A DNA stretch of 48,860 bases from a virus. Made by a program: the position numbers and the translations under genes. Within the stretch, counting starts at the first letter, position 1. Every line of letters begins with the position of its first letter. Below are positions 1-47,580 of this stretch, one piece after another. The notes below the pieces were generated by a model. It searched no databases, was not told the origin of the DNA, and saw only the letters and a list, made by a program, of their open reading frames with translations. The stretch covers positions 1 through 48,860 of IMG/VR virus record IMGVR_UViG_3300025889_000183, one strand, 5' to 3'.

Positions 1-485
1 CTATTCTAGGATTTGAGGAGATAAACGGTATAATATATGTAAAAGACGAAATAGAAAGGGAAAGGCCAACGCCATCAGAGATGCTAGATACACTACTATT
101 ACTATCAAAGAAATACGGTAACTGCCTAATGCTAGTAGATTCTGCACATACAGGATTAATTAGGGATCTTCAGAATAGGGGGGTTAATACTCAATCAGTA
201 GTATTCGGCTCAATGAGTGAGGATAACAAACAATCACTAATATCAAAGATGACATTTGAGGCCAGTCAAGCGGTAAGGGAGAAAAGAGTTAGAATCCACA
301 AATCAATGAGAACCTTAACAGGCCAATTAAAGGCAGTATCATTTAACTCTAAAGGACACCCAGATAAGACAAAACTTAATTTCGATGCAGGCGATTGCTT
401 TCTTATGGGCGTGAATCATCTAAAGAGTAACAGGGTAAGAATCATTTCACTATCTTTAAATAATACAGATGAAGAGGATGATTGA
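1..485 (+). CDS. terL: Terminase large subunit, C-terminal part (copy A, cut by window start)
   Basis: The reading frame is open from the first base (first full codon at 3) to a TGA at 483-485. It matches the last third of the complete terminase at 37707-39107 almost residue for residue. What remains is the end of the RNase H-like nuclease domain that cuts concatemeric DNA during head filling: the VDSAH aspartate and the DAGD pair near the C-terminus are both present. The ATPase half lies outside the window. Nearly all differences from copy B are synonymous. The stop codon overlaps the start of the structured RNA that follows. Confidence 0.9.
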   Translation, partial: ILGFEEINGIIYVKDEIERERPTPSEMLDTLLLLSKKYGNCLMLVDSAHTGLIRDLQNRGVNTQSVVFGSMSEDNKQSLISKMTFEASQAVREKRVRIHKSMRTLTGQLKAVSFNSKGHPDKTKLNFDAGDCFLMGVNHLKSNRVRIISLSLNNTDEEDD

Positions 486-598
486 CCGTCAGCCATAACC
501 GAGAATCTTTCTAGATAAGAGGAAAAGTTGGGCTCTTAGGTCTTAGCCTAAAAGCGTGTATGAGACATCATTAGGCTAACTTTTATTAACAAGTATGA
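480..598 (+). ncRNA. Structured RNA downstream of terminase, copy A
   Basis: This non-coding stretch is conserved at the same place in copy B (39320-39453). A perfect 9-bp stem (543-551 with 571-579) closes a loop. In copy B the stem sequence is different but still pairs, which is compensatory change. Both copies keep GATTGACCG and CTAGATA on the 5' side, AAGCGTGTA and TGAGACATCA inside the stem, and AACAAGTATGAT after it. A weaker 5' stem, TAAGAG with CTCTTA, is seen only here. A short T-rich tract follows. The role is unknown; a packaging RNA, cis-regulator or processed viral RNA are all possible. Confidence 0.65.
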
Positions 599-661
599 TA
601 ATTAATAATGGGTTAAGCAGAACTGGTTATCAGGGCTGAGAGAAATCAATGAAGCCTAAAT

Positions 662-669
662 CTTTATTA
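662..669 (+). promoter_or_regulatory. TATA-like box for the gene at 693
   Basis: TTTATTAT is centred 27 bases before the ATG at 693, the spacing expected for a leaderless archaeal transcript. Confidence 0.4.
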
Positions 670-692
670 TCAAGTATCTATAATTCAAATCA

Positions 693-803
693 ATGATACC
701 ACACTGTCCATCATGTAGTTTCCATTTGCAAAAAATAACATCATCTGGCGATTCATGTCAAATCTATATCTGTATGTGTGGCAAGAGGTATTTTGAGAAA
801 TGA
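693..803 (+). CDS. 36-aa zinc-ribbon miniprotein
   Basis: A short ORF of 36 residues with a CPSC knuckle near the N-terminus and a CMC motif before the end, which looks like a small zinc ribbon. A TATA-like box sits 27 bases upstream, and its stop overlaps the next start (ATGA). Copy B has other small genes at this place. The function is unknown. Confidence 0.5.
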   Translation: MIPHCPSCSFHLQKITSSGDSCQIYICMCGKRYFEK

Positions 804-967
804 GTAGAGGAACTGGAACTATGAAAGGTCGCAGAGGTAACAGAAAGCCAACCAAGAAAGAAGTGCTTGAAGAACAGTCAATGATAATATTCCAGCAAAA
901 CATGATAATACAAGAACAGAAAAGGGTTATAGAGAATCTAACTAATACTTCTAATATTAACAAATAA
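800..967 (+). CDS. Small basic/coiled-coil protein, copy A
   Basis: This 55-residue protein starts in an ATGA overlap with the zinc ribbon before it. It opens with MSRGTG, then a basic stretch, then a Gln/Glu-rich helix likely to form a coiled coil. The 53-residue protein at 39827-39988 in copy B has the same N-terminus and helical tail, so the gene is conserved although its neighbours differ. The position before the head genes fits a small virion or regulatory protein, but no function is recognised. Confidence 0.6.
   Translation: MSRGTGTMKGRRGNRKPTKKEVLEEQSMIIFQQNMIIQEQKRVIENLTNTSNINK
949..959 (+). promoter_or_regulatory. Late-type promoter box before the 981 operon
   Basis: TTCTAATATTA is centred about 25 bases before the ATG at 981. 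Copy B has TAGTTCTCATAA at the same place, so the TTCT element is kept while the rest varies. Confidence 0.45.
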
Positions 968-980
968 TCAAATTTCCTCA

Positions 981-1289
981 ATGGGAGTCATTTTTAATTC
1001 AGGTAGAAAAGATACAGGCAGGACAGACAAATATTCAGACGAAACGCCTCTAAAAGACTACCAGGATTACAGAAAAGACTATCCATTAAAAGACGAAAAC
1101 GCTAGGGAAATAGCACGTGAAATCACACTAAAGAAAAGACCGGTTCAATTCATAGGCAAAAAGAGTTTAGAAGTACGCAAACAGGAATTAGTTTCTCATA
1201 TTCAATCTTATCAAGAAACTTTCTCACATCAGGATAAAAAGAAATGGATTAACAAACTTAAGGAATTGAACGAGGCACTAGGATTTTGA
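981..1289 (+). CDS. Conserved 102-aa basic protein upstream of portal, copy A
   Basis: A lysine- and arginine-rich protein of 102 residues, nearly identical to 40605-40913 in copy B. It has a charged N-terminal half with repeated DY/KDYPLKDE motifs and a helical C-terminus. No family is recognised. Its place between terminase and portal, its late-type promoter and its strong conservation suggest a role in packaging or head assembly. The last codons overlap the next gene through TTGA. Confidence 0.75.
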   Translation: MGVIFNSGRKDTGRTDKYSDETPLKDYQDYRKDYPLKDENAREIAREITLKKRPVQFIGKKSLEVRKQELVSHIQSYQETFSHQDKKKWINKLKELNEALGF

Positions 1290-1447
1290 ATCAGGTTTTA
1301 GATACTTTTAACCATTGTGTAGATGATCTTATTGCAGAGATTAGGCGTATTAATACTGAGAATCCTGATCCGTTAATGGCAGAGAACAAGACCAAAAGAG
1401 TAATTCAAAAATGGTTCAAGTATGGCGGAAGACTACCTAGAGGTTAA
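1286..1447 (+). CDS. 53-aa conserved protein, copy A
   Basis: It starts at a TTG that overlaps the TGA of the previous gene and ends two bases before the next TTG start. The 53-residue product is predicted mostly helical and ends in a basic KWFKYGGRLPRG-type tail. The copy-B counterpart at 40910-41071 differs at very few positions, which supports real coding. No function is recognised. Confidence 0.65.
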   Translation: MNQVLDTFNHCVDDLIAEIRRINTENPDPLMAENKTKRVIQKWFKYGGRLPRG

Positions 1448-1449
1448 AA

Positions 1450-1791
1450 TTGACCTTAGGAATTTATTTAACTTTAGATCAATCCATAATTAATTATGGG
1501 GATTATTCCAGCGGTAACAAGATAACAGGAACCATTTATAGTGACATTTACAAATCAGTAGCCTTTAACCTAACCGATTATACCGTTACACTTAGATTAT
1601 ATAGAGAGAATGGAACTGTAGATTATCTTAACGGTACTTGTGCCATTGTAACTGCAGCCAGTGGAACTTTCTCATTAACCGTAACGGATGGCCTATTACC
1701 TCAAAGAGGATTATATTTAGCCGAAGTGGAAGTATCCAAATCAGGAATACTACTCTCTAGCATAAACAGGGTGGAGTTGTTAATACAATGA
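1450..1791 (+). CDS. BppU-like beta-sandwich virion protein, copy A
   Basis: A 113-residue beta-rich protein with a TTG start. The pattern (NLTDYTVTLRLYRENGT, then a G-F-L-T-V strand, then QRGLYLAEVE) resembles the N-terminal domain of phage baseplate upper proteins (BppU/DUF2479). In phages that domain anchors receptor-binding proteins; here it stands alone just before portal. Copy B has a nearly identical gene at 41074-41415. The family match is by eye and moderate; the position could also fit a head decoration role. Confidence 0.55.
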   Translation: MTLGIYLTLDQSIINYGDYSSGNKITGTIYSDIYKSVAFNLTDYTVTLRLYRENGTVDYLNGTCAIVTAASGTFSLTVTDGLLPQRGLYLAEVEVSKSGILLSSINRVELLIQ

Positions 1792-3458
1792 CAATCAAAT
1801 CATTCCTTAAAAAAATATGGGTAGAGGAAGCAGTACCAAAACCAATATCACAAATCATAAAGTCTTACGGTTATCAGGGCGATTCTCCAGAGGTATCATT
1901 TGAAAGGAAAATATACTATCACTCAATATCCCCACAAATTCAGGTAGGGGTCACAGGTTATGCCAGACTATTAGATCCAGCCAATATTATAGTAAATACA
2001 GATGATGAACAATCAAAAAAGATTATAGAAGATTGGATTGAAGATACCGATTTTAAAACCAAATTCGAGGCCATGTGTAATACATTTTTGATATGTGGAA
2101 ATAGTATCTTAGAAAAACTAGACGATAAACTAATTCAAGACGTAGCCGAAGTGGATATGAAAACCATAGTAGGCAAGAAAAGAGATGATGCAGGTAACAC
2201 TCTATACTATATCCAACAAGCAGGTCCAGAACAAAGAAAACTAGGAGAAACAAAACTGGATAAATTCATCGAGTTTAACTTATCAACTATTTCAAGGGGT
2301 ATGTGGAGTCCTTGTATCTTTGAATCAGCCTGTATCCCCAGAATGGTAGGAAATAGAAACACCTTACCTCTAGTTGAATTGGTAGTTGGCCTAGAAGATG
2401 CCATGAGTACAATAGTATTAAACAACGCATATCCAGAAGTATATTATACATTCGAGGGTGCAAATGAGGAAGAATTAAAACGAGAGGCAGAGAAGTTAAG
2501 GAAAAAGAAACCAGGAGATAGATCCATAGTAACAAAGCAACCAAAGATAGACCTGTTTGAGGCCAAAGGACAATCGGCTTATGTAGACTATATCAAATAT
2601 TTGTATAACTCATTAAGTGCTTCTGTCAAGTTCCCAATAGATATTATCAATGGTGATTTTACTTCAAGGGCAAGTAGTGAAACATCTGCAGATTTACCCC
2701 AAATGGTTGCAAGTTCAATTAAGAGATATTTGGGTAATAAACTAAAGCAAGAACTATTTGATCTTATTTTACAACAGAATGGTAAGGATCCTAAAAAGGC
2801 AAACTTGCAAATTACATTCGGTTCTAACGAAGTAACCCCGCTTACCCCAGCAGATGTAGTATCAAGATTTGAAAAGAAATTATGGACAGTTGAGGAAGCA
2901 AGGGAATGGGATAAGGATAATACCAATTCCGACCTATTTGATGACGATGTAATTAATAATGAAGCACAGGCTGAAAAAGAACAACAGGTAAAAGACGATA
3001 TGATACCAGTTGATGATAAGAAAGGCGGTTTTGTAATGAAACCTAGAATAGTAACCAATATCAAAAAGGAAAAAATCAAAGAGGGATTTGGTGCCACAGT
3101 TATTTATAAATTAGATTATGGCCATGATAAAACTGATGTTTGTGATGATTACGCTGATAATGTATATGAGATAGATTCCCCAGATATTCCTAAATTACCA
3201 GATGAAACCCATCCTAACTGTAAGTGTTATTTTGAGGATGAGGAATCAGGTGAATATCTAGGCCAAGATCCAATAAGTGCTATTAATGGTACAACAATAG
3301 AACCAGAGTCATTTAGAAATATAAAGAAAGAATTTGCTAAAAGAGATGAACAAATCAAACTGCTCCAAGAGAAACTAGCCGAAAGGGAATTACAGGAATC
3401 ATCCGAGAAAGCAAAGACTACCAAAGAGATACTAGGGTTACTGAGGGATCTTAAATGA
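1788..3458 (+). CDS. Portal protein with fused MuF-like C-terminal domain, copy A
   Basis: A 556-residue portal protein, the dodecameric ring through which DNA enters the head. It overlaps the gene before it by ATGA and follows the terminase block as in most tailed viruses. Residues 1 to about 400 match copy B (41412-42809) almost completely, including the central RASSETSADLP segment. Copy A then carries about 100 extra residues with the signature VCDDYADN, then DIPKLPDETHPNCKCYF, typical of the C-terminal domain of Mu gpF/SPP1 gp7 minor head proteins. A shared coiled coil (EQIKLLQEKLAEREL) ends both versions. Portal-MuF fusions are known in some viruses; here one copy has it and the other does not. 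Confidence 0.85.
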   Translation: MTIKSFLKKIWVEEAVPKPISQIIKSYGYQGDSPEVSFERKIYYHSISPQIQVGVTGYARLLDPANIIVNTDDEQSKKIIEDWIEDTDFKTKFEAMCNTFLICGNSILEKLDDKLIQDVAEVDMKTIVGKKRDDAGNTLYYIQQAGPEQRKLGETKLDKFIEFNLSTISRGMWSPCIFESACIPRMVGNRNTLPLVELVVGLEDAMSTIVLNNAYPEVYYTFEGANEEELKREAEKLRKKKPGDRSIVTKQPKIDLFEAKGQSAYVDYIKYLYNSLSASVKFPIDIINGDFTSRASSETSADLPQMVASSIKRYLGNKLKQELFDLILQQNGKDPKKANLQITFGSNEVTPLTPADVVSRFEKKLWTVEEAREWDKDNTNSDLFDDDVINNEAQAEKEQQVKDDMIPVDDKKGGFVMKPRIVTNIKKEKIKEGFGATVIYKLDYGHDKTDVCDDYADNVYEIDSPDIPKLPDETHPNCKCYFEDEESGEYLGQDPISAINGTTIEPESFRNIKKEFAKRDEQIKLLQEKLAERELQESSEKAKTTKEILGLLRDLK

Positions 3459-3757
3459 CATTAAAACTATTCGAGGACAAAGAGGGAACCAAACTGTTCA
3501 ATATGTGTAATTTCATAGAGGTAGAAGTAGGCTCATCTAAATCCAAAGAGGTTTATCTTAAGAACATTGATGAGAAATGGAATATAGTAAACATCAAAGA
3601 GACAGTAACAGACGGTGATATTTCAGTAGTTAACATACCCTTACAATTAGCACCAATGGAATCAAAGGCAGTAACAATCATATTCAAACCGTCATTAAAC
3701 AGGGATTCAGGACTTCATAGCGACTTATTCTTTACGGGGAAGCTTGTCAAGGTATAG
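3455..3757 (+). CDS. 100-aa beta-sandwich virion protein, copy A
   Basis: It starts inside the portal stop (ATGA). The 100 residues are identical to the copy-B product (42806-43108) although the DNA differs at many third positions, so it is under strong purifying selection. The strand pattern and a PMESKAVTIIFKP motif suggest an immunoglobulin-like fold. Its TAG stop is the first part of the late promoter box for the next gene. Likely a head or decoration protein; no family assigned. Confidence 0.7.
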   Translation: MTLKLFEDKEGTKLFNMCNFIEVEVGSSKSKEVYLKNIDEKWNIVNIKETVTDGDISVVNIPLQLAPMESKAVTIIFKPSLNRDSGLHSDLFFTGKLVKV

Positions 3758-3767
3758 TTCTATTTTA
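3755..3767 (+). promoter_or_regulatory. Late promoter box TAGTTCTATTTTA
   Basis: The box begins with the TAG stop of the previous gene. TATTTTA is centred 27 bases before the ATG at 3791, which predicts a leaderless mRNA. Copy B has the same box at 43106. Confidence 0.65.
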
Positions 3768-3790
3768 CTAAATTTATGGGGTAATAACTA

Positions 3791-4345
3791 ATGGTTGCAA
3801 CTTTTGACGTTGTTTGGGATTTTGGTGGAACAGCAAACACACCAGGTACAGTAGCCCAGACACTTACTAATTTACGATTTAACAACGAGGATACAAATGA
3901 TCAGGATACAGCATCACCAATTACAATTACAGCCGCAACTACAATTTACTCTTTTTGGAAACACGTTTATCTAAAATGTACTTCTGGTCCATCAGTTCAA
4001 ATTAACAATGTCAAAGTCTATACAGACGGCACATTGGGTTGGACAGGATGCACAGTCAAGGTAGGCGATGACGTATGTACTAGAAATTCTACACCATCTT
4101 ATGCAGGTTATGATCCAGGTGTTGCTACCGTACTTACAAACCACGATACCATAGCAACTACAACAAGTCTTTTCACTTATACATCAGGCGCTGCTCGAAC
4201 CGTTACGATCAGCGAAACAGATTCCGTAATTAACGCAACAAACGAGACTACCGATTATGTAGTACTTCAACTTGAGGTTACAGATACCGCAAGTCCTGGA
4301 ACTACTGCAACCGAAACAATAACGTTCTCATACGATGAAATTTAA
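3791..4345 (+). CDS. Beta-rich virion protein (184 aa), copy A
   Basis: A Thr/Ser-rich 184-residue protein without lysine-rich stretches, made of predicted strands and ending in an ATETITFSYDEI tail. It leads its own transcription unit from a strong late box, so it is probably made in quantity. Copy B (43142-43696) is closely similar but has several substitutions in the surface-like middle part. A decoration or head-fibre protein is the best guess; no named family recognised. Confidence 0.65.
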   Translation: MVATFDVVWDFGGTANTPGTVAQTLTNLRFNNEDTNDQDTASPITITAATTIYSFWKHVYLKCTSGPSVQINNVKVYTDGTLGWTGCTVKVGDDVCTRNSTPSYAGYDPGVATVLTNHDTIATTTSLFTYTSGAARTVTISETDSVINATNETTDYVVLQLEVTDTASPGTTATETITFSYDEI

Positions 4346-4691
4346 TCCAGCAGATTGCAAATGGAGAGCAATCCACACAGATAAGATTATAGAATATCCA
4401 AACTATATCGATATAGACCGTTCCACTCTACAGGAATTTCAATTATTAGACGGCGAGCAAGTAGTCTATTCATTAAAAAGACCAAAGAACAAGCCATTCA
4501 AACTATTCGCTAGATTAAGAACTTATGATATGAAAGTAGATAATCAGGGAACTAAGGTATGGATAATAGGCAATAATATTCCGCCTGTAAAGTTTGATGT
4601 CATAGACGGGGAAACAGTAGAATCCTGTAATGAGTATCGAACCAATCACGCAAAGTATGACAGGGTTATATTCAGAGAGGATGAATTATGA
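4335..4691 (+). CDS. Conserved 118-aa protein, copy A
   Basis: It overlaps the end of the previous gene by 11 bases. The 118-residue protein mixes strands and charged turns (for example YSLKRPKNKPFKLFARLRTYD) and is conserved in copy B (43686-44042), where most changes are near the C-terminus. After this gene the two copies diverge completely for one gene. The function is unknown; the setting is virion structure. Confidence 0.65.
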   Translation: MKFNPADCKWRAIHTDKIIEYPNYIDIDRSTLQEFQLLDGEQVVYSLKRPKNKPFKLFARLRTYDMKVDNQGTKVWIIGNNIPPVKFDVIDGETVESCNEYRTNHAKYDRVIFREDEL

Positions 4692-4693
4692 AC

Positions 4694-4703
4694 TTCTATA
4701 ATA
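4694..4703 (+). promoter_or_regulatory. Promoter box before the 4725 gene
   Basis: TTCTATAATA lies between the genes with TATAATA centred 25 bases before the ATG at 4725. It fits the late consensus apart from the missing TAG. Confidence 0.5.
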
Positions 4704-4724
4704 GTGAGGATTTAATGGAATAAT

Positions 4725-5198
4725 ATGGCAGAATACACAATGAACGTACAGGCAACATCTAATTCTTCTGCAAACACATCTGACGCATTTTTAGAATTAA
4801 AGGCTCCAGCTTCTACAACTGTATTGTTAAAACGTATTAGAGTTGCTTCTCATGCCACAACCCCAGCTGATAATGTGATCTATATAAGATTAAACAGATC
4901 AAGTGCTGCGGGTGCTACAGGATCAGGCTTTACTCCACTTAAAAGGAGACAGACTGCACCAGTCTCAGTAATCACATCTTCAGCGGCATTTGTCAAAAAC
5001 GGAACTACTGCTTTTTCAATCGGAGCAGTAACAGATACTCCTATCAAAAGTGCAGTTAATCAAAGAGGTGTTTGGGAATGGATAGCAAGAGATAAGGATG
5101 ATTATATCGAATGTGGTTCAGCAGCTTATCTTAATTTGGAAATTCAAGTAGGTGCTGCCTCACAGCTTATCAGTGCCGAATGGGATTGGGAAGAATAG
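4725..5198 (+). CDS. 157-aa structural protein found only in copy A
   Basis: An Ala/Thr/Ser-rich 157-residue protein, predicted beta-rich, with its own promoter box. Its composition and length look like phage head-fibre or decoration proteins. Copy B has no homologue: the same slot there holds a Cys-rich protein (44039-44350). The gene is therefore a strain-variable accessory part of the virion block. Confidence 0.6.
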   Translation: MAEYTMNVQATSNSSANTSDAFLELKAPASTTVLLKRIRVASHATTPADNVIYIRLNRSSAAGATGSGFTPLKRRQTAPVSVITSSAAFVKNGTTAFSIGAVTDTPIKSAVNQRGVWEWIARDKDDYIECGSAAYLNLEIQVGAASQLISAEWDWEE

Positions 5199-5202
5199 AT
5201 GT

Positions 5203-5610
5203 ATGATCACATGGACCGCAGATTCATGTACTGGTAATACTAATACTGGATGCAAAATAGTAATAGACACAACAAATCCAAATAATCCAACTTTTGTATC
5301 GTTTGAAAGAAGATGTATTAATCATAGTACAATTTCAGGGGATACCTTATTACAGACAATGTTATCAGAATCCAGAAGAAAAGAATATACTAGACAAAAA
5401 CTATTAGAGATAGCGTCGTCTATTTTGGGTACTACAAACACAGATGGTGTACTGGTTTGGAAAAACGGTGTATCAATGAACTGGTCTTACGACTCTAACA
5501 GAATCCTAACCATATCAGTATCAGGTGTCACACTAACCACACAGCAAAAGGCAACAGCCCAGTCATGGTGTGACACTCAATTCGGTAGCGGAAAAGTGAT
5601 AGTGGTATGA
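5203..5610 (+). CDS. Conserved 135-aa virion-associated protein, copy A
   Basis: The start is placed at the ATG at 5203, just after the previous stop; an in-frame ATG at 5152 would overlap the previous gene by 47 bases and adds residues with no counterpart in copy B. The C-terminal half (SVSGVTLTTQQKATAQSWCD then FGSGKV) is conserved in 44344-44751. The N-terminal half has scattered cysteines in both copies but is otherwise diverged, as if it binds a variable partner. Located directly before the fibre genes; the role is unknown. Confidence 0.6.
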   Translation: MITWTADSCTGNTNTGCKIVIDTTNPNNPTFVSFERRCINHSTISGDTLLQTMLSESRRKEYTRQKLLEIASSILGTTNTDGVLVWKNGVSMNWSYDSNRILTISVSGVTLTTQQKATAQSWCDTQFGSGKVIVV

Positions 5611-5611
5611 C

Positions 5612-6889
5612 TTGGCAGACACTATACTAGTTGCGTCAGAGTCAGAGGGTAGTGGTGCATTAGGTTCAAATGTAATACGATATATCCCCATAGGGTCTGG
5701 ATTTGGAGCACCGAATACCACAGAATCAAATATTGAAAGGACTTGGCGTAATGCTGGAACATTAAAAAAATTACTGGTATTAGTAACATCAAACTCAATT
5801 TTAGTCTTAGATACAGTTTATACTACCAGAAAAAATCAGGCAAATACATCGCAGACGGTTTCAGTTCCAGCAGGCTCTACGGGAACTTTTGAGGATACCA
5901 CAAACAACGTAACAGTAGCTGCTACGGATGAACTGGATTATTTGGCAGACACGCCAGTAACGGCATCAGGTACAATCACAGCAACATCAATTTCAAACAT
6001 ATATACAGCAGATTCCAACACATACACAAACTTTCAAACTTCACATTACACATCTGATACATCAGTATCATATACTGACAACACTACACGATATGCCCTA
6101 ATTGGGGGGTTTATTACAAATGAATCAACTGAATCAAATGTAAATACCACTTTCAAATCTGCAGGTACTTTAAAGAATGGATTTGTCTATATCACACAAA
6201 ACAACATATCAAGTGCCAGCACCATCAGAACCAGAAAAAACAACACTACAAACGGAAACATATCAATCTCAGTAACAGGAAATACAACAGGAATATTTGA
6301 GGACTCAAGCAATACGGATACCGTAGCAAGTGATGACGAATGGAACTGGCAGATAGTATGTCCATCGGTTACACAAACAAAAACAATAGAAATAAGACAC
6401 CTGCAAATCGGGTTCGAGACTACAAATTCACAATTTCCATTATTTTCAGGTACTTCGGCACCAAAAACACAAGCGTTTAATGCCACATATTATTACGCAT
6501 TAGGTTCTGCAAATGAATCTAATACTGAGTCACACAGGGCTGTAAAATCCAGAGTATCCTTTACAGCTAAAAACATGGTAGCTGCGGTAACGGCAAACAC
6601 AATAGCAACATCAGAAACCACATTCAATTTCAGAAAAACAAATAATTCGGTAATCACAATATCAGTAAGTGCTGGTGCAACTGGAATCTTTGAAAACACG
6701 TCAGACACCTCATCAGTAGATACAACAGATACAATCAACTTTTCAGTTATTACACCAAACACATCAGGTAGTATTTCATTCAGACAGATTTCAGTAATGG
6801 CTGATGCATCATGGATGTATCTTCCAAGTACGCCAAAACGTAACAAGTTCAACTTCCAAGACATAGACGAGGGGGAAGAAATTGGTTAG
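5612..6889 (+). CDS. Beta-rich fibre/adhesin protein (425 aa), copy A
   Basis: It starts at TTG one base after the previous stop. The protein consists of three or four similar blocks of about 130 residues, each with an R-N-A/S-G-TLK turn, an N-T-TGIFEDT/S motif and a T-D-E-W/L strand, so it is built from repeated beta domains. In copy B the equivalent region is the N-terminal half of one 804-residue protein (44748-47162), which links this gene functionally to the repeat protein that follows. Probably a virion fibre or spike. Confidence 0.6.
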   Translation: MADTILVASESEGSGALGSNVIRYIPIGSGFGAPNTTESNIERTWRNAGTLKKLLVLVTSNSILVLDTVYTTRKNQANTSQTVSVPAGSTGTFEDTTNNVTVAATDELDYLADTPVTASGTITATSISNIYTADSNTYTNFQTSHYTSDTSVSYTDNTTRYALIGGFITNESTESNVNTTFKSAGTLKNGFVYITQNNISSASTIRTRKNNTTNGNISISVTGNTTGIFEDSSNTDTVASDDEWNWQIVCPSVTQTKTIEIRHLQIGFETTNSQFPLFSGTSAPKTQAFNATYYYALGSANESNTESHRAVKSRVSFTAKNMVAAVTANTIATSETTFNFRKTNNSVITISVSAGATGIFENTSDTSSVDTTDTINFSVITPNTSGSISFRQISVMADASWMYLPSTPKRNKFNFQDIDEGEEIG

Positions 6890-8144
6890 ATATGTTTATC
6901 CTCGTTCAAAAACACCGCCACGAGTAGCATCAGTTACATACACCAAGACATTTACAATAGACGCTACTCTCAAAAAGAATCTTACAAAGACCTTTACAAT
7001 TGATACCGTACTAAAGAAAAACTATACAAAGACGTTCACCGCAGATGTAACATTAAAGAAAAACTTTACCAAAACATTTACTATTGACGCAACATTACTA
7101 AAGAATTATCCAAAAACATTCACAATAGACACCGTACTAAAGAAACTCAGTATTCCAAAAACCTTTACAATCGATACTGTTCTAACAAAACTAAACAACC
7201 TCAAGACCTTTACTATTGACGCAGTATTAGCAAACACCTACACAAAGACATTCACAATAGACGCGGTACTCAAAAAGAATCTAACAAAGACCTTTACTGT
7301 AGATACCGTACTTCAAAAACTAGATAATCTAAAGACATTCACCGTTGACGCTACCCTCAAGAAAAACTTTACAAAGACATTTACAGTTGACACCGTCTTA
7401 CTCAAGAACTTTACAAAAACCTTTACAGTAGACGCTACTTTACTCAAGAATTTCACCAAAACGTTCACCATTGATGCCGTACTTAAGAAATCATATACAA
7501 AGGCACTAACAATAGATACAGTATTACAGAAAAATCTAACAAAAACATTCACTATCGATTCTACTCTGCTTAAGAGTTTTACAAAACAATTCACAATAGA
7601 TTCGGTATTAAAGAAAGCCTATACCAAGACTTTTACCGTAGATTCTACCCTCAAAAAGGCATTTACCAAGACATTCACCATAGATACTTACCTAGAATCT
7701 GCTGGAAGCACCACAAAATCATTCACAATTGACGCAGTTCTGCAGAGATTATCAACCAGACGGGCTGGAAGTGCCATAAAGAGGGTAAGAAGAAAATTAC
7801 CACCAAGATATCCTGAATTTATCACAATAGAGTTACATTTACCCCTAGAATCAGCCGTTACAGTTCCATTAAGGGAAAAAATACCGTTAAGATCCTTTGT
7901 CTATCAGAATCTAAGGACAATAATCAGCCTAGAATCAAGCGTATTTAGGAAGATTATAGAGAATTTACCCCTTAGATCAGCCATTTCACAGGAAACAAAC
8001 ACGCATACGGCACTGGAAAGTTATATATCAAATGGAAATGTGTTTTATAGTATTCCTCTAGATGGTAATATTAACAGGGATAAAATGGACAAAATCAGGG
8101 AAAAACTAATCGATTTGATAGGAGAAGAATATGAAACTTCCTAG
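6882..8144 (+). CDS. Fibre protein with 19 tandem 14-aa repeats, copy A
   Basis: The TTG start overlaps the end of the previous gene by 8 bases in another frame. Residues of about 20-290 are 19 tandem units of 14-16 residues with consensus TKTFTIDxVLKKxx. A basic hinge (RRAGSAIKRVRRKLPP) leads to a 110-residue C-terminal domain rich in LPLRSxxxLES motifs, which is strongly conserved in copy B. Similar FT-D-A-L repeats occur in phage structural proteins. The likely role is an elongated spike or fibre whose length is set by the repeats. In copy B it is fused to the preceding gene. Confidence 0.65.
   Translation: MVRYVYPRSKTPPRVASVTYTKTFTIDATLKKNLTKTFTIDTVLKKNYTKTFTADVTLKKNFTKTFTIDATLLKNYPKTFTIDTVLKKLSIPKTFTIDTVLTKLNNLKTFTIDAVLANTYTKTFTIDAVLKKNLTKTFTVDTVLQKLDNLKTFTVDATLKKNFTKTFTVDTVLLKNFTKTFTVDATLLKNFTKTFTIDAVLKKSYTKALTIDTVLQKNLTKTFTIDSTLLKSFTKQFTIDSVLKKAYTKTFTVDSTLKKAFTKTFTIDTYLESAGSTTKSFTIDAVLQRLSTRRAGSAIKRVRRKLPPRYPEFITIELHLPLESAVTVPLREKIPLRSFVYQNLRTIISLESSVFRKIIENLPLRSAISQETNTHTALESYISNGNVFYSIPLDGNINRDKMDKIREKLIDLIGEEYETS
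6945..7745 (+). repeat. Tandem 42-bp coding repeats in the fibre gene, copy A
   Basis: Nineteen units of roughly 42 bases encode KTFTID-type motifs. Units differ at many third positions, so this is an old array and not a recent expansion. The same number of units, mostly in the same order, is present in copy B. Confidence 0.75.
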
Positions 8145-8412
8145 TTTTTGTTATCAAAAGGCTTTCTGGGTACTAGTTCCAATAATTATTGTTTCCATGT
8201 CTTCAGGCGTTGCTGCAGTAATGGGCCAGATAAGTTCTATGGATATAAGATTAAACCATGTTGAAAGCGAGGTTGACATGAATAACGTTCCAGAGTTGAA
8301 ATTAACAATTAATAACAGATTTGACAAGATTGATGAAAACTTGTATATCATTCAAAAGCAGAATTTAGAAAATTATAAACAAATTTGCAGATTATCAGAG
8401 GGAGACTGTTGA
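8131..8412 (+). CDS. Small membrane protein with coiled coil, copy A
   Basis: A 93-residue protein with one membrane segment at about residues 10-30 (WVLVPIIIVSMSSGVAAVM), then a Glu/Asn-rich coiled coil ending in a short Cys-containing tail. The architecture resembles small XhlA-type phage membrane proteins, but no homology is claimed. Copy B (47149-47430) keeps the membrane segment and heptads. It overlaps the fibre gene by 14 bases and the next gene by TTGA. Holin accessory or virion-membrane anchor are possible roles. Confidence 0.6.
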   Translation: MKLPSFCYQKAFWVLVPIIIVSMSSGVAAVMGQISSMDIRLNHVESEVDMNNVPELKLTINNRFDKIDENLYIIQKQNLENYKQICRLSEGDC

Positions 8413-8531
8413 GGCTTAGATTTTCAAACAAAAAGATATTATGTTGTACTCACTGCTCATCCATGAGACTTGATTTGGTTGGCGATGTGTTGATATGTGT
8501 GGACTGTAAGGCAGTTAGGGCGTTGAGTTAG
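8409..8531 (+). CDS. 40-aa zinc-ribbon miniprotein, copy A
   Basis: TTG start overlapping the TGA of the membrane protein gene. The product has CCTHC and CVDC knuckles 14 residues apart, a compact zinc ribbon. Copy B (47427-47549) keeps all these cysteines and adds two more near the end. Its TAG stop forms the start of the protease promoter box. The function is unknown. Confidence 0.65.
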   Translation: MRLRFSNKKILCCTHCSSMRLDLVGDVLICVDCKAVRALS

Positions 8532-8541
8532 TTCTATTTTA
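8529..8541 (+). promoter_or_regulatory. Late promoter box before the prohead protease
   Basis: TAGTTCTATTTTA overlaps the stop codon before it; TATTTTA is centred 25 bases before the GTG at 8563. The same box stands in copy B at 47547. Confidence 0.65.
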
Positions 8542-8562
8542 GTATATTTTAATTAAAAATTC

Positions 8563-9162
8563 GTGCATAAAGTAGTTATAGAATCAGTAGGAAGCGTAAA
8601 AGGCAGAATTATAGAGGGTATAGCCTTGACGCCAGCGGTATCACTTAACAGAAATATTTACTCCATAGAGGCCATAGATTCGGCTAGAAACCTAGACAAG
8701 CAACTTAAAGCCGATTGGGAGCATACTGACGAAGTAGTTGGTCATGTAACTTATTTCAAAGGACCTAATCATAGTATAAATTATAGAGCCGAAATAACCA
8801 CAGAAAGGGCTGCAGAGATCAAAGAGGGTGTTCACAAGGTATCAATAGAGGCTTCAGTTGATGATGTTGTATCTTCTTGTAATAAAAAAGGCTGTTATAA
8901 TCTGGTAGATGGAATTACATTTGAGGGTATAGGAATTACTACAAATCCAGGTGTCCAAACCACAACTCTAAACATAGTAGAATCTTATCAGGATTGGAAG
9001 CCAATAACAGAATCACATTGTCTAACCTGTAACGAGAATATTATAAAAATAAACGAGGAAGAACAGAGTGAAATCAAGATAGAATTAGAGAATCTAAAGA
9101 AACAGGTTGAGATACTATCCAGACCAAAATGTGAAAAGTGTCACAAACCAGCTAAAGTATAG
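8563..9162 (+). CDS. Prohead protease with scaffold-like C-terminus, copy A
   Basis: A 199-residue protein with GTG start, fixed by the promoter 25 bases upstream. It lies directly before the major capsid gene, the usual place of the head maturation protease. Candidate catalytic residues are His54 in DWEHT and Ser94 or Ser98 in the KVSIEAS strand, matching the His-Ser layout of the HK97-type (U35/S78) proteases. After about residue 140 it turns into a Glu/Lys coiled coil typical of scaffold, ending with a CEKC motif paired with an earlier CLTC, a possible zinc knuckle. Copy B is nearly identical (47581-48180). Confidence 0.7.
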   Translation: MHKVVIESVGSVKGRIIEGIALTPAVSLNRNIYSIEAIDSARNLDKQLKADWEHTDEVVGHVTYFKGPNHSINYRAEITTERAAEIKEGVHKVSIEASVDDVVSSCNKKGCYNLVDGITFEGIGITTNPGVQTTTLNIVESYQDWKPITESHCLTCNENIIKINEEEQSEIKIELENLKKQVEILSRPKCEKCHKPAKV

Positions 9163-9172
9163 TTCTATTTAA
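9160..9172 (+). promoter_or_regulatory. Late promoter box before the major capsid gene
   Basis: TAGTTCTATTTAA overlaps the protease stop codon; TATTTAA is centred 27 bases before the ATG at 9196. The capsid gene thus has its own promoter, as fits the most abundant virion protein. Confidence 0.65.
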
Positions 9173-9195
9173 TATACAAACTAGCTAACCAATTA

Positions 9196-10506
9196 ATGAC
9201 AGATATAGACGAATGCGCTTGTCCTAAAGAATCTGAACATTGTGCCGAAGAAGATAAAATCGACGGTAAATGCCCAGAAGTTCCTAAAGTCGAGAGCATT
9301 CCAGAATGGGCAAAAGCTCTTCAAACCTCTTACGAATCAATCTCAGGCAAATTAGAAAAACTAACCACGCTTGAAGTTGCCGCTGGAGTCAGAGAAGTGC
9401 CAAAGCCAGAAGCAACAGTATCTAACACAACAGCAGATACAGTCACAATGGAAAACATCGCTGAAAAGTTGTCAAAAGCCTTTGATGAGGGTAGAGACTT
9501 AAAACTCACTATTCCATATGAGGGTGTAAGATCACTTGCAGTTTCAACCCAACAAGTAGGTAGAAATGGCATTAGTGAATCATACAAAGCATCTAACTTC
9601 AGAAAACACCAAATTCAAGAGGTTGGATTTACCTTTACAGGTACACACACAGCCATTGACCAAATTCCTGGAGTCCAAACAGTTCCAGGTGGTGTTGATT
9701 TCGCACCATTGAGACAGTACACTAACTACAAATCTATCCCAAAAGGAAAAGATTCCGCAACTTTCTACAAAAAGACACTGCCAGACACACTAGTCCAAGT
9801 ACCAGGTACAACTGTCACAGAATCATCAATGACATTTACAGCAGTAAATATTCAGCCTAGCACTATTGCAGGTTCATACTTTAAGATTGACTCTGATGAC
9901 GAGGAAGACGTACCATATTCAATATCCGCAGAAGTTGTTGACGCAATCGGTCAAACCGTAGTTGACTATGAAGATAACGCAATTATCAACACAGCAGCCG
10001 CAGCAGCAACTCCAGGATTATGGGTAAACGGTAACACTGGTGCAACAATTACACATGACGATATTTCAGGCATGACGCTTGATCCATCAGCCATTGGTAA
10101 GGCAGTAGCATATCTTAGCTCACAAGGCTATTTGAAAGGCGGAGTAGCACCAGTTCTAGTAGCACATCAAAACGCAATCGACCAGTTAGTTAGAGATAGC
10201 GACCTAGTTGATTTCGTACAAAACTCTAATGATGGAATTACAAGAAGCGGTGACTTCCCAATGCTATACGGTTGTAAATTAGTGAAATCTAACAGCGTAA
10301 CCACAATGGATAACACCACAAACGATACCTATAGAAACTATATGTTCGTTCCAGGTATTACATTTGGTTCAGCATCAAAACGTGACTTAAACGTACAATT
10401 CCACTCCATACCAGAAAACAATCAGATAGGGGTAACAGCCAACTGGAGATTTAAATCTGGAGTAATTGACGCAAGTTCATTAGTTAGAATTTCCTCAAGC
10501 CAATAA
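9196..10506 (+). CDS. Major capsid protein, HK97 fold, copy A
   Basis: A 436-residue major head protein. The N-terminal 110 residues are acidic and helical, like the HK97 delta domain that serves as internal scaffold; they start with a cysteine cluster (ECACP, then HC, then KCPEVPK) also kept in copy B. The main part shows the expected order of N-arm, a long E-loop region (KDSATFYKK to PGTTVTESS) and the C-terminal P/A domains with the late QIGVTANWRFKSGV strand. It follows protease and precedes connectors. A T-rich terminator follows. The last 99 bases of the window repeat 9739-9837 in this gene exactly. Confidence 0.85.
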   Translation: MTDIDECACPKESEHCAEEDKIDGKCPEVPKVESIPEWAKALQTSYESISGKLEKLTTLEVAAGVREVPKPEATVSNTTADTVTMENIAEKLSKAFDEGRDLKLTIPYEGVRSLAVSTQQVGRNGISESYKASNFRKHQIQEVGFTFTGTHTAIDQIPGVQTVPGGVDFAPLRQYTNYKSIPKGKDSATFYKKTLPDTLVQVPGTTVTESSMTFTAVNIQPSTIAGSYFKIDSDDEEDVPYSISAEVVDAIGQTVVDYEDNAIINTAAAAATPGLWVNGNTGATITHDDISGMTLDPSAIGKAVAYLSSQGYLKGGVAPVLVAHQNAIDQLVRDSDLVDFVQNSNDGITRSGDFPMLYGCKLVKSNSVTTMDNTTNDTYRNYMFVPGITFGSASKRDLNVQFHSIPENNQIGVTANWRFKSGVIDASSLVRISSSQ

Positions 10507-11056: not shown

Positions 11057-11699
11057 TGAATTATCTATTGGAATTTGCTGGTACAATGATCCAAGTATAT
11101 TCCGCCTACTGGATAGCCTACCTAAATCAGTTGAAAAAATTGTTGTTGATGGGAAATTCAAACTGAACCCAAACCCACAGGAATTATCAGATGAATCATT
11201 AAGATTAAGATTGCTAGATTATGACAATATACATTTGATAGACGCACCAAATTTAACCGAGCCTGAAAAAAGAAACCAATATCTTATGGATAATGATCAT
11301 AAATATCAGTTAAATATAGATTCTGACGAATATGTGATTGCTGCAGATTGGGGTAAATTCTATAATTTTATTCTTACTCTGGATAGTGGTATTCATCATG
11401 TGTTTTTTGAGGTAGATGAGAACGGGGGAACTTCTACTTATCCAAGACTATGGGTAAATCCCAGCGAATGGGAATATGTGATATGTCATAACATTTTTAG
11501 AAATAGAAAACTAGGAAAAATATTAAAGAGTGGATTTTCAGAGGGGGAAACCTGTCCAGGCGTACTATGTGGAATGAATGATAATCTGCGAAATGAAAGA
11601 TACCTTAAAGAAATTATAGATTATCAAACTCAGATGATTGCATTTGAAAAACCATTTAGACATAAGTTCCAACAGGGAGATTTGAAAGACTTTGAATGA
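11046..11699 (+). CDS. Glycosyltransferase-like protein (GT-A type)
   Basis: The start is the ATG at 11046 that overlaps the end of the acyltransferase gene. The 217-residue protein begins with a strand and SIGICWYNDPSIFRLLDSLP, and has NIDSDEYV at about residue 93, a plausible D-x-D metal and sugar-nucleotide site. It lacks a full GT2 signature, so it may be a distant family member. It overlaps the radical SAM gene by 8 bases, which indicates co-translation. The acceptor is unknown; virion or host surface glycan is inferred. Confidence 0.55.
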   Translation: MNFDELSIGICWYNDPSIFRLLDSLPKSVEKIVVDGKFKLNPNPQELSDESLRLRLLDYDNIHLIDAPNLTEPEKRNQYLMDNDHKYQLNIDSDEYVIAADWGKFYNFILTLDSGIHHVFFEVDENGGTSTYPRLWVNPSEWEYVICHNIFRNRKLGKILKSGFSEGETCPGVLCGMNDNLRNERYLKEIIDYQTQMIAFEKPFRHKFQQGDLKDFE

Positions 11700-13427: not shown

Positions 13428-13428
13428 A

Positions 13429-37351: not shown

Positions 37352-37747
37352 ATGAAAGATGAAATCAAGAACGAATGTTATATGATGTATCTTGACGGAT
37401 ATGAGCAAAAAGATATAGGAAAGAAACTAAACATATCACAGGCCACCGTAAGCAGGGCAATAACAAGCATAGAAAGGGGTAATGACTATCAGTTAGCAAT
37501 CAAATCATGTGGGGTATTATCATCATTATACGTAAGGTATCAGGACTGGTTAAAGAAGAAGTTAAGGGAATTAAATGAGATAAAGCCAGATGGTAATTCA
37601 GATAGAATATCAGTAATCAAACTAGAGAATGACCTGTATAAGGATATGTTAACCGTTGCAGCGAGTGGTGATTTTATAGAGAATGTAAGAAGAATGAGGG
37701 ATAAACTTGGCGAACTTGAAGCAGGATCTGACACTAAGCAAGGCTAA
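37352..37747 (+). CDS. terS: Terminase small subunit (helix-turn-helix)
   Basis: A 131-residue protein before terL. Residues 12-42 (DGYEQKDIGKKLNISQATVS then RAITSIERG) form an HTH that would bind the packaging site; the C-terminal half is helical and should form the oligomeric ring. It overlaps terL by 41 bases in another frame. Only one copy lies in the window because copy A is cut at its start. Confidence 0.7.
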   Translation: MKDEIKNECYMMYLDGYEQKDIGKKLNISQATVSRAITSIERGNDYQLAIKSCGVLSSLYVRYQDWLKKKLRELNEIKPDGNSDRISVIKLENDLYKDMLTVAASGDFIENVRRMRDKLGELEAGSDTKQG

Positions 37748-39107
37748 AGAGGCATTTGAATCCATAAAGGGTGACGATTCCGATTATTGGCTGCAATTCA
37801 AAGGGCTATCATGGAAAGAATTTAACGAAAAGATAGGTATGCCACTCAATACAAAGACCAAACTTCATACCAAGATATACCAGTATGAGGATGATTTAAT
37901 CGAAGATATTCTAAAACATAGAATGGTATGGGTAAAAAAGGCCACTGGATTAGGAATCACAGAGATAATTAACCGATTCATAGCGTGGATGTGTACCAAA
38001 GACGATACATTTAGGGATAACCAGATAGACGTATCGGTAGTAATATTCACAGGTACTAGAACACGATTGGCCGTACAGATAATAGACAGGATTAAGGGAT
38101 TATTCATAGGCCATGTATTTGAGGAAAGGGAAACAATAGGATATATCAACGGGGCTAAGATAGAATCATTCCCATCTTCATCAACTGAAACAGCAAGGGG
38201 ATTATCACCATTTATTGTATTCGTAGATGAGGGTGATTTCTTTGAGAAAAACGAGCAGGAAGAAGCAAGGACCACAGCCGAGAGATATATCATCAAGACA
38301 AACCCATACATCATATTTGTATCTACGCCTAATCTTCCAGGTGGATTATTTGAGAGAATGGAGAAAGAAGATCCTAGCCAATACCACAAGATATTCCTAC
38401 CATATACGATAGGCCTAAGAGATGGAATGTACACAGAAGAAGAGATAGAAGAGGGTAAAAAGAGCCCAAGTTTTGAAAGGGAGTATAACCTGCAGTACGG
38501 TGTTGGTGTAGGTGATATTTTCAATTCCGAACTGGTTGATATGATTACAGAAGATTATGACTTATCCCTTAATGGTGGAGCAAAACTAATCACAGTAGAC
38601 CCAGCATATGGTTCATCAAACTTTGCAATTCTAGGATTTGAGGAAATAAACGGTACAATCTATATAAAAGATGAAATAGAAAGGGAAAGACCTACACCAT
38701 CAGAGATGCTAGATACTCTATTATTATTGTCAAAGAAATACGGTAACTGTCTAATGTTGGTAGATTCTGCACATACTGGATTAATCAGGGATCTTCAGAA
38801 CAGGGGAGTTAATACACAATCAGTAGTATTCGGCTCAATGAGCGAGGATAACAAACAATCATTAATCAGTAAGATGACATTCGAGGCCAGTCAGGCAGTT
38901 AGAGAAAAGAGGGTAAGAATACACAAGTCAATGAAAACATTAACAGGCCAGTTAAAGGCAGTATCATTTAACTCTAAAGGACACCCAGATAAGACCAAAC
39001 TAAACTTTGATGCTGGTGATTGCTTTCTTATGGGCGTTAATCATCTAAAGAGTAATAGGGTAAGAATCATTTCATTATCTTTAAATAATACGGATGAAGA
39101 TGAATAA
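37707..39107 (+). CDS. terL: Terminase large subunit, copy B
   Basis: A complete 466-residue packaging motor with TTG start inside terS. The ATPase domain has a deviant Walker A, KATGLGIT at residues 78-85, and Walker B with catalytic glutamate, VFVDEGD at 171-177, then the coupling segment FVSTPNL. The nuclease domain shows the three acidic positions: D298 in ITVDPAYG, D353 in LVDSAHTG and D435/D438 in FDAGD. It pumps DNA into the head and cuts the concatemer. The last 160 residues match copy A. Confidence 0.92.
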   Translation: MANLKQDLTLSKAKEAFESIKGDDSDYWLQFKGLSWKEFNEKIGMPLNTKTKLHTKIYQYEDDLIEDILKHRMVWVKKATGLGITEIINRFIAWMCTKDDTFRDNQIDVSVVIFTGTRTRLAVQIIDRIKGLFIGHVFEERETIGYINGAKIESFPSSSTETARGLSPFIVFVDEGDFFEKNEQEEARTTAERYIIKTNPYIIFVSTPNLPGGLFERMEKEDPSQYHKIFLPYTIGLRDGMYTEEEIEEGKKSPSFEREYNLQYGVGVGDIFNSELVDMITEDYDLSLNGGAKLITVDPAYGSSNFAILGFEEINGTIYIKDEIERERPTPSEMLDTLLLLSKKYGNCLMLVDSAHTGLIRDLQNRGVNTQSVVFGSMSEDNKQSLISKMTFEASQAVREKRVRIHKSMKTLTGQLKAVSFNSKGHPDKTKLNFDAGDCFLMGVNHLKSNRVRIISLSLNNTDEDE

Positions 39108-39108
39108 C

Positions 39109-39117
39109 TTTAAATTA
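39109..39117 (+). promoter_or_regulatory. Early-type promoter for the RHH gene
   Basis: TTTAAATTA is centred 27 bases before the ATG at 39140, just after the terminase stop. Confidence 0.5.
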
Positions 39118-39139
39118 TTGTAACATATTAAGTTATATA

Positions 39140-39268
39140 ATGCAAAAATATAAAACAATGACTTTGAAATATGAAACATATTCCACATTGGAGAAACTTG
39201 CAAGAACTGAAAATAGAACAGTTCCAAATTATCTAGAAACATATTTCTGCAAACATGATATAGATTAA
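39140..39268 (+). CDS. Ribbon-helix-helix-like protein (42 aa), copy B only
   Basis: A short strand (KTMTLKY) is followed by two helices (YSTLEKLARTENR and VPNYLETYF), the layout of an Arc/MetJ-type repressor. It has its own early-type promoter. Copy A has nothing here. As it lies between terminase and the structured RNA, it may regulate that RNA or the late genes. Confidence 0.6.
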   Translation: MQKYKTMTLKYETYSTLEKLARTENRTVPNYLETYFCKHDID

Positions 39269-39319
39269 TCTAACGATTAGTTTATATTCAACTCTTTTTA
39301 TTTATATTTGTCTTTCAGG

Positions 39320-39453
39320 GATTGACCGAGTTTAGATTCTAGATATATGAAAGGTAGCCCTCTTAAGACGCTAGGATGTAAGCGTGTACCAGAGAACTGG
39401 GCGGGATAAAATCCGTGAGACATCAACATCCTAACCTTTTTTAACAAGTATGA
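39320..39453 (+). ncRNA. Structured RNA downstream of terminase, copy B
   Basis: The same element as 480-598. The main stem is 39372-39379 with 39426-39433, with a sequence different from copy A but again fully paired. Inside it are the conserved AAGCGTGTA and TGAGACATCA strands, between which copy B adds two small hairpins: CCAG-AGAA-CTGG (39389-39400) and GGAT-AAA-ATCC (39404-39414). A CCTTTTTT tract follows. A TATA-like TTTATATTT at 39301-39309 could drive it. The role is unknown. Confidence 0.65.
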
Positions 39454-39456
39454 TTA

Positions 39457-40170: not shown

Positions 40171-40182
40171 GGAGTATGCGAT

Positions 40183-40590: not shown

Positions 40591-40604
40591 TCAAAAATCC
40601 ATTA

Positions 40605-41071: not shown

Positions 41072-41073
41072 AA

Positions 41074-41415
41074 TTGACCTTAGGAATTTATTTAACTTTA
41101 GATCAATCGATAATTAATTACGGGGATTATTCAAGCGGTAACAAGATAACAGGAACTATTTATAGTGACATTTACAAATCAGTATCCTTTAACCTAACCG
41201 ATTATACCGTTACACTTAGACTATATAGGGAGAATGGAACTGTTGATTATCTAGACGGAACTTGTGCCATTGTAACTGCAGCCAGTGGTACTTTCTCACT
41301 AACCGTAACCGATGGCCTATTGCCTCAAAGGGGATTATATTTGGCAGAAGTAGAGATAACCAAATCAGGAATACTACTCTCTAGCATAAACAGGGTGGAG
41401 TTGCTAATACAATGA
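41074..41415 (+). CDS. BppU-like beta-sandwich virion protein, copy B
   Basis: The 113-residue counterpart of 1450-1791, differing at about four residues. Same start codon TTG and same ATGA overlap with portal. Confidence 0.55.
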   Translation: MTLGIYLTLDQSIINYGDYSSGNKITGTIYSDIYKSVSFNLTDYTVTLRLYRENGTVDYLDGTCAIVTAASGTFSLTVTDGLLPQRGLYLAEVEITKSGILLSSINRVELLIQ

Positions 41416-42809
41416 CAATCAAATCATTCCTACGAAAAATATGGGTAGAGGAAGCAGTACCAAAACCAATATCACAGATTATAAAGTCTTACGGTTATCA
41501 AGGGGATTCTCCAGAGGTATCATTTGAAAGGAAAATATATTATCATTCAATATCCCCCCAGATTCAGGTAGGTGTTACAGGGTATGCCAGATTATTAGAT
41601 CCAGCCAATATTATAGTAAATACAGATGATGAAGATTCAAAGAAGATTATAGAAGATTGGATGGAAGTTACCGATTTTAAGACCAAATTCGAGGCCATGT
41701 GCAATACATTTTTAATTTGTGGTAACTCTATTCTGGAAAAACTAGATGATAAACTAATCCAAGACGTAGCCGAAGTGGATATGAAAACCATTACAGGCAA
41801 GAAAAGAGATGATGCAGGAAATACACTATACTATATTCAACAAGCAGGACCAGAACAGAGAAAACTGGGAGAAACAAAACTGGATAAATTCATAGAGTTT
41901 AATCTTTCTACTATCTCTAGGGGTATGTGGAGTCCTTGTATCTTTGAATCTGCATGTATTCCAAGAATGGTAGGAAATAGAAACACGTTACCTCTAGTTG
42001 AATTGGTAGTTGGCCTAGAAGATGCCATGAGTACAATAGTATTAAACAACGCTTATCCAGAAGTGTATTATACATTCGAGGGGGCAAATGAGGAAGAATT
42101 AAAGCGTGAAGCTGAGAAACTAAGGAAAAAGAAACCAGGAGATAGATCAATAGTAACCAAGCAGCCAAAGATAGATTTGTTCGAGGCAAAAGGTCAATCC
42201 GCTTATGTCGATTATATCAAATACCTTTACAATTCCTTATCCGCATCCGTCAAGTTCCCAATAGATATTATCAACGGTGACTTTACAAGCAGGGCAAGTA
42301 GTGAAACCTCTGCAGATTTACCCCAGATGGTAGCAAGTAGTATAAAGAGATACTTGGGTAACAAGTTAAAACAGGAACTATTTGATTTAATCCTACAACA
42401 GAATGGCAAGGATCCTAGAAAAGCCAATCTACAAATCACATTCGGTTCTAACGAACTGACTCCATTAACCCCCGCAGATGTAGTATCCAGATTTGAAAAG
42501 AAATTATGGACAGTTGAGGAAGCTAGGGAATGGGATAAGGATAACACTAACTCGGATCTGTTTGATGATGATGTAATTAACAATGAGGTACAGGCACAAA
42601 AGGAAGAGGAACAGAAACAACAATTCGCAGATAAGACTAGTGTGGCAGGATTAAAACAAGATATGAATGATGTTAAGAAAGAAATGAATCAAAGAGATGA
42701 ACAGATTAAACTACTCCAAGAGAAACTAGCCGAAAGGGAATTACAGGAATCAAGTGAAAAGGCAAAGACTACAAAAGAGATACTAGGGTTATTGAGGGAT
42801 CTTAAATGA
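41412..42809 (+). CDS. Portal protein without MuF domain, copy B
   Basis: A 465-residue portal. The core matches copy A closely, but after residue 400 it goes through a short Glu/Lys/Gln linker (SVAGLKQDMNDVKKEMNQ) straight to the shared C-terminal coiled coil. The Cys-rich MuF-like block of copy A is missing. This is the normal portal length for such viruses. Confidence 0.88.
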   Translation: MTIKSFLRKIWVEEAVPKPISQIIKSYGYQGDSPEVSFERKIYYHSISPQIQVGVTGYARLLDPANIIVNTDDEDSKKIIEDWMEVTDFKTKFEAMCNTFLICGNSILEKLDDKLIQDVAEVDMKTITGKKRDDAGNTLYYIQQAGPEQRKLGETKLDKFIEFNLSTISRGMWSPCIFESACIPRMVGNRNTLPLVELVVGLEDAMSTIVLNNAYPEVYYTFEGANEEELKREAEKLRKKKPGDRSIVTKQPKIDLFEAKGQSAYVDYIKYLYNSLSASVKFPIDIINGDFTSRASSETSADLPQMVASSIKRYLGNKLKQELFDLILQQNGKDPRKANLQITFGSNELTPLTPADVVSRFEKKLWTVEEAREWDKDNTNSDLFDDDVINNEVQAQKEEEQKQQFADKTSVAGLKQDMNDVKKEMNQRDEQIKLLQEKLAERELQESSEKAKTTKEILGLLRDLK

Positions 42810-43118: not shown

Positions 43119-43141
43119 CTAAATTTATGGGGTAATAACTA

Positions 43142-47559: not shown

Positions 47560-47580
47560 GTATAATTTAATTAAAATTTT

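Follow-up and report, generated by a model that had tools for sequence, protein, structure and literature searches.

A structured RNA family in probable viruses of ammonia-oxidising archaea, with related hairpins in Nitrosopumilus chromosomes

The stretch of DNA analysed here, called the window, is a single IMG/VR virus record (IMGVR_UViG_3300025889_000183) of 48,860 bases. Its terminase matches PHROG terminases and, when compared with a phage collection, has the Nitrososphaera provirus Pro-Nvie1 as its sole match (45%); the host is therefore probably an ammonia-oxidising archaeon. The region from terminase through portal to capsid is present twice in the record, about 39 kb apart (3-9837 and 38628-48860), with 86-90% DNA identity over the longer aligned pieces, and each module carries one RNA element, copy A (480-599) or copy B (39318-39454). 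The duplication may reflect tandem related proviruses, a recombinant or a chimeric assembly; a Pfam scan of ten proteins between the two modules detected no integrase. The features of the two modules are the following.

3..485, plus strand: end of the terminase large subunit gene of module A, 97% identical in amino acids to module B over the shared part
455..462, plus strand: TATA-like box of copy A, TTTAAATA, 36 nt before P0 and inside the terminase gene end
484..587, plus strand: RNA copy A, approximate predicted transcript, its start estimated from the TATA spacing and its end from the T-run
492..499, plus strand: copy A P0 5' strand GCCATAAC, delineated by hand
527..533, plus strand: copy A P0 3' strand GTTGGGC, delineated by hand
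534..540, plus strand: copy A linker TCTTAGG (CTTA[AG] in the family), conserved
543..579, plus strand: copy A hairpin, with P2 (543-551/571-579), internal loop AAGC/CA, P3 (556-559/565-568) and loop ATGAG
580..587, plus strand: copy A T-run CTTTTATT, probable transcript end
1788..3458, plus strand: probable portal gene of module A, assigned by synteny with Pro-Nvie1, a profile match being absent
37707..39107, plus strand: terminase large subunit gene of module B, 45% to Pro-Nvie1
39281..39288, plus strand: TATA-like box of copy B, TTTATATT, 37 nt before P0
39310..39442, plus strand: RNA copy B, approximate predicted transcript
39318..39327, plus strand: copy B P0 5' strand GGGATTGACC, delineated by hand
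39353..39360, plus strand: copy B P0 3' strand GGTAGCCC, delineated by hand
39361..39367, plus strand: copy B linker TCTTAAG
39372..39433, plus strand: copy B hairpin, with P2 (39372-39379/39426-39433) and P3 (39384-39387/39420-39423)
39389..39415, plus strand: 27-nt insert in the P3 (apical) loop of copy B, which can form two hairpins (39389-39400 and 39402-39415)
39435..39442, plus strand: copy B T-run CCTTTTTT, predicted transcript end
41412..42809, plus strand: probable portal gene of module B, 94% identical to that of module A

Elsewhere in the window, both modules encode proteins of 14-residue repeats (42-nt units; 6942-7746 and 45924-46770), and a long array of 12-nt repeats lies within a 475-aa frame (27683-28400). 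A radical SAM protein and a family 2 glycosyltransferase encoded near one another, and a matrixin-type metalloprotease, are further features of this archaeal virus (11692-14223 and 35144-35764).

An earlier sequence-only reading had proposed a conserved structured RNA at this place, with stems whose two sides had changed together between the copies. The stems exist exactly as it described them: P2 pairs TTAGCCTAA (543-551) with TTAGGCTAA (571-579) in copy A, and TAGGATGT (39372-39379) with ACATCCTA (39426-39433) in copy B. The window contains the core AGCGTGTA..TGAGACATC exactly two times, where 0.00 occurrences would be expected by chance. In an alignment of 79 columns, the copy B insert being set aside, both copies form all 18 pairs; five of these differ in both bases between A and B, and no pair differs in one base only. 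All five double changes are compensated and none is broken, an outcome with a probability of about 0.007 for five random double changes, and pairing is lost when the partner strand is slid along the alignment (31-53% of cells). The free folds of A and B have no unusual stability (z -1.1 and -0.7), and z-scores from plain MFE folding are weak, between -0.75 and -2.6. By itself, the comparison of A and B is suggestive of RNA structure; a structured-RNA family is established because homologues beyond these two copies keep the pairing. An outer stem seen first in A and B, 'P1' (AAAAGTT/AACTTTT), was left out of the family structure, because it shares a strand with P0 and was not recognised in other members. 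Stem P0, the TATA box at a fixed distance and the apical insert of copy B had gone unremarked in the earlier reading.

A covariance model of the two copies (R1), a check that had been suggested at the outset, was searched against 400 Nitrososphaerales genomes and led to homologues in archaeal genomes. It returned one notable match, in G206, where the apical core is identical bar one base and is enclosed by an eight-pair stem of different sequence. A search seeded with G206 found copies in which P3 reads GCGT/ACGT instead of GTGT/ACAT, a compensated change. The second model (R2) was built from five members; in its hairpin set 9 of 12 pairs have compensated changes, and none of 500 shuffles reaches the observed covariation. 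Searched against the same 400 genomes, R2 gave 15 matches (E <= 3.2e-5) in 13 of them, all Nitrosopumilus, the genus set being one that includes the named Nitrosopumilus genome G001. When the core was sought in the 400 genomes as a pattern with two mismatches allowed, the matches read were rejected except G206, their flanking stem never exceeding four pairs; many of them lie in one conserved protein (ERVYETL), and G402 (an R2 match at E 0.0014), one of these matches, was likewise rejected.

IMG/VR was covered with exact degenerate patterns and protein-guided retrieval. Sixteen matches to the exact core were read and rejected as chance. L118, which came from another exact search for the core, has a 13-pair stem flanking the core and had not been preselected by any structure search. 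Scans for two core variants followed by a stem filter gave nine contigs (L174, L167, L180, L178, L175, L164, L168, L173 and L190) with stem runs of 6-8 pairs; in L176, the tenth contig from the core scans, the element runs off the contig end, and L204-L207 were added by portal-guided retrieval. Ammonia-oxidising archaea drive nitrification in sea and soil, and some of their viruses carry amoC. Among the marine virus contigs that bear the RNA, L174 and L167 encode AmoC (PF04896, above cut-off), and amoC is known to mark viruses of marine Thaumarchaeota (PMC8115048).

The viral members consist of the P0 stem, then CTTA[AG], then the hairpin, and copies A and B can be read likewise. P0 pairs completely in 13 of 13 viral members delineated (cut by hand; A, B and 11 others); marine examples are GGGATTACC..GGTAGCCC, GCAGGACACC..GGTGCCTGC and TCGGGACACC..GGTGCCCGA. 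P0 was scored only beside the hairpin, because a generic P0-CTTA scan alone fails to discriminate (64 of 80 loci versus 60 on the other strand). In the hairpin, P2 varies freely but stays paired; it is followed by an internal loop of 4x2 bases (AAGN/CA), P3 with four pairs, and a small loop that usually reads N(1-2)GAG. The arrangement AAGN-P3-loop-P3'-CA inside a varying paired P2 is found in A, B, the viral homologues and the 15 host copies. In a set of 15 distinct, non-redundant viral and host hairpins, of which the inner six P2 pairs were counted, P2 is paired at 88 of 90 positions, versus a mean of 54.7 with strands swapped among members (0 of 20,000 shuffles reach 88), at 59 of 60 versus 34.9 in the viral members alone, and P3 at 60 of 60. 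The apical stem covaries too. These counts come from hand delineation, with some members chosen partly by structure and the related sequences non-independent. G.U pairs outnumber A.C by 18 to 1 in the same set, and the selected molecule is therefore RNA of this strand.

These comparisons of sequence confirm that copies A and B belong to a real structured-RNA family, and the covariation in many homologues bears out the earlier call of a conserved functional RNA. Neither kind of contrary observation named with that call, homologues with an unpaired stem or a conserved reading frame, was encountered: the stem is paired in the homologues, and open frames across the region are 17-39 codons long and unconserved. 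The account of nearly unchanged parts stands for the enclosed unpaired bases, which are fixed, but not for CTAGATA, which lies in the variable P0 loop, or for AACAAGTATGAT, which lies after the T-run; neither was seen in the other family members read.

The family has no counterpart in the resources searched. Rfam 15 (4227 families) gave no gathering match in the window; at E<=5 copy A had none and copy B three chance-level matches, and the homologues tested had no match of the element, two unrelated weak matches lying elsewhere in L174. ARAGORN found no tRNA or tmRNA fold, and inspection of host and viral loci showed neither C/D boxes nor a pseudouridylation pocket plus ACA with a K-turn. The first judgement that the element is not a tRNA, a C/D box RNA or a hammerhead is thus upheld. 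No match or description of this RNA was found in the phage collection and the literature. We know of no earlier description of a structured ncRNA common to ammonia-oxidising archaea and their tailed viruses, and a literature search found none. Archaeal H/ACA and C/D guide RNAs are likewise small archaeal RNAs having a hairpin with an internal loop, but the element shows no C/D boxes and no Rfam match. The latter also separates it from GOLLD and ROOL, the ornate RNAs known from phages and bacteria (PMC12286853), which are structured non-coding RNAs of unexplained function as well but much larger. Tan1, of 229 nt and from marine group II Euryarchaeota, is another unexplained ncRNA of marine archaea; set against the element by description alone, it belongs to another phylum and is twice the size (PMC5069720).

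The viral element has the marks of a gene of its own. A TATA-like octamer starts 36-38 nt before P0 in 13 of 13 viral copies checked, and offset -36 has the top mean TATA score among offsets -10 to -100 (5.54 versus a mean of 3.21, sd 0.60). In 8 of 12 copies measured, four or more T in a row come within 12 nt after P2. Several portal genes have their own TATA-like sequence, placed by visual reading about 30 nt ahead of the start codon, and thus the RNA need not be a leader. We consider that the viral RNA is probably an independently transcribed, discrete molecule of about 100-130 nt.

The host copies are short and solitary, consisting of the hairpin only, and the P0 domain and linker were not seen in them. 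Eleven have a block in common that begins about 40-60 nt before the hairpin and reaches about 50 nt beyond it; 10 of 14 other copies match the G127 copy over a block including about -59 to +52 (G315 from -39). The block contains a TATA-like box resembling TTAAATAC, the surrounding genes mostly differ between sites, and what is conserved is promoter and hairpin only. The idea that the chromosomal copies are integration sites was rejected, the flanks being mostly unshared. Several host RNA copies have, within about 1 kb, a gene for the same 52-aa zinc-ribbon-like protein (MIPKGDIPG.C.DCG...), which occurs twice in L121 (about 8197-8355 and 9261-9419) and also near the RNA in L127, L129, L130 and L132.

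Considering this paired, covarying, strand-specific RNA, with its fixed TATA-like spacing in viruses and its hairpin in hosts, we tentatively favour the following function, at somewhat less than even confidence. The viral RNA may be a small ncRNA with its own promoter that acts in trans, mimicking a host RNA to engage a host RNA-binding protein; its transcription, its protein partner and its action in trans are what we infer. An archaeal promoter would yield a discrete two-domain RNA of about 100-130 nt. Domain 1 would be the covarying P0 with the fixed CTTA[AG] linker, and domain 2 the hairpin. Protein-binding sites typically look like fixed unpaired bases on a changeable helix, and the unpaired AAG/CA would be such a putative site. 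Since AAG/CA is kept in viruses and in otherwise unlike host copies, it is best read as the site of a cellular protein. The hairpin stands alone in Nitrosopumilus chromosomes, where the marine portal was not found (95 Nitrosopumilus-genus genomes, in a search without a positive control), and the partner would therefore be a host RNA-binding protein. With host copies in just 13 of 400 genomes, this partner need not be a widespread host protein. During infection the viral RNA would recruit or titrate it, and the P0-CTTA domain would add a virus-specific task. Alternatively, the host copies could have a viral origin, or could work against viruses. The host-mimic reading leaves the commonest viral position, adjoining the portal gene, unexplained.

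That position raises an unlikely but serious alternative, which the earlier reading had offered as speculation: the RNA would be a packaging RNA that belongs to the portal-terminase machine or serves as its scaffold, in the manner of phi29 prohead RNA. The first reading had the element follow the terminase; this holds in the window, where the RNA lies between terminase and probable portal, but elsewhere the better-kept neighbour is the downstream portal gene. The hairpin ends about 70-115 nt before a same-strand portal gene in ten marine contigs (L180, L173, L175, L164, L168, L190 and L204-L207), portal identity coming from PHROG for L180 and L174 and, for the others, from alignment or retrieval with the L180-type portal. 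A second structured RNA also lies in this area in many viruses of this portal family. The size is like that of phi29 pRNA (120-174 nt; PMC11476376), which is also viral and separately made, as we suppose for the element; the association with portal and terminase is a matter of biochemistry there and of gene position here. Unlike pRNA, the element has no Rfam match, lies beside the portal gene instead of at the genome end, and has its hairpin also in host chromosomes, solitary and where the portal was not found. According to a review, only phi29-like phages have pRNA (PMC11476376). The RNA lies on the strand opposite the portal, 1 kb away, in L174, and opposite the neighbouring portal-like gene in L118. 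Viruses nearer to that of the window by terminase or portal (Pro-Nvie1, L021-L023 and L281-L284) lack the RNA at this place; terminase-guided searches gave relatives L021-L024 and terminase matches in 42 of the 400 genomes (some weak), and the element was found in none of those loci.

The second structured RNA is itself uncatalogued. It has the form CTAGCTGG..CCAG-YCCTCC-(variable)-TATGCANACTCACACCACTAG, lies upstream of the portal gene in more than 30 marine virus loci (L213 at about 3690-3765, L215, L217-L219, L222, L224, L228, L262, L276, L208 at 3265-3365 and others), and has a closing stem that changes between GTGTAG/CTACAC and CCTAG/CTAGG. Loci tested gave no Rfam match for it, and L208 carries both structured RNAs.

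An improbable alternative reverses the roles: the viral RNA would be the original, and the host hairpins decoys competing for its partner, an RNA-based defence. The host copies are indeed sporadic, lack the P0 domain and are sometimes multiple, and in G342 (L152 = G342:C61, 564-8464) two hairpin copies flank a type IIG restriction enzyme, an OLD/GajA-like nuclease and an AbiV-like gene. The other host copies examined, however, lie among ordinary-looking genes, and the few nearby proteins tested gave no defence match.

We give the same low weight to a cis-acting leader, a riboswitch or attenuator of the downstream gene. The position ahead of the portal gene in those ten marine contigs would suit this reading, as would the ability of the P0 3' strand in A and B to pair alternatively with the 3' flank (AAAAGTT/AACTTTT and AAAGGT/ACCTTT) in an either-or manner. 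The portal genes' own TATA-like sequences argue against a leader; moreover, a T-run often intervenes, L174 and L118 have the RNA on the opposite strand, and host copies have no consistent downstream gene.

A combined scenario, in which tailed viruses of ammonia-oxidising archaea use the RNA in the portal/terminase machine and host decoy hairpins jam that machine, would be a long shot. A self-cleaving ribozyme, which small size and fixed unpaired bases on variable helices might suggest, is very improbable, the element matching no Rfam ribozyme family and showing no known catalytic core in that comparison. Least probable of all is a DNA element (a packaging site, origin or recombination site) with the hairpin formed by single-stranded DNA: the element sits in the packaging region and hairpins serve in DNA too, but the excess of G.U over A.C indicates that one strand is selected as RNA, and the fixed TATA spacing and a conserved host block of promoter and hairpin only argue in the same direction.

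The covariance model from this family is applicable to any archaeal virome. Should the RNA act at the portal, this would be the first packaging RNA beyond the phi29-like phages; if the portal/terminase RNA and the decoys are both true, it would be a second, independent packaging RNA outside that group. An RNA that several nitrifier viruses keep, with an echo in host chromosomes, points to a testable virus-host interaction.
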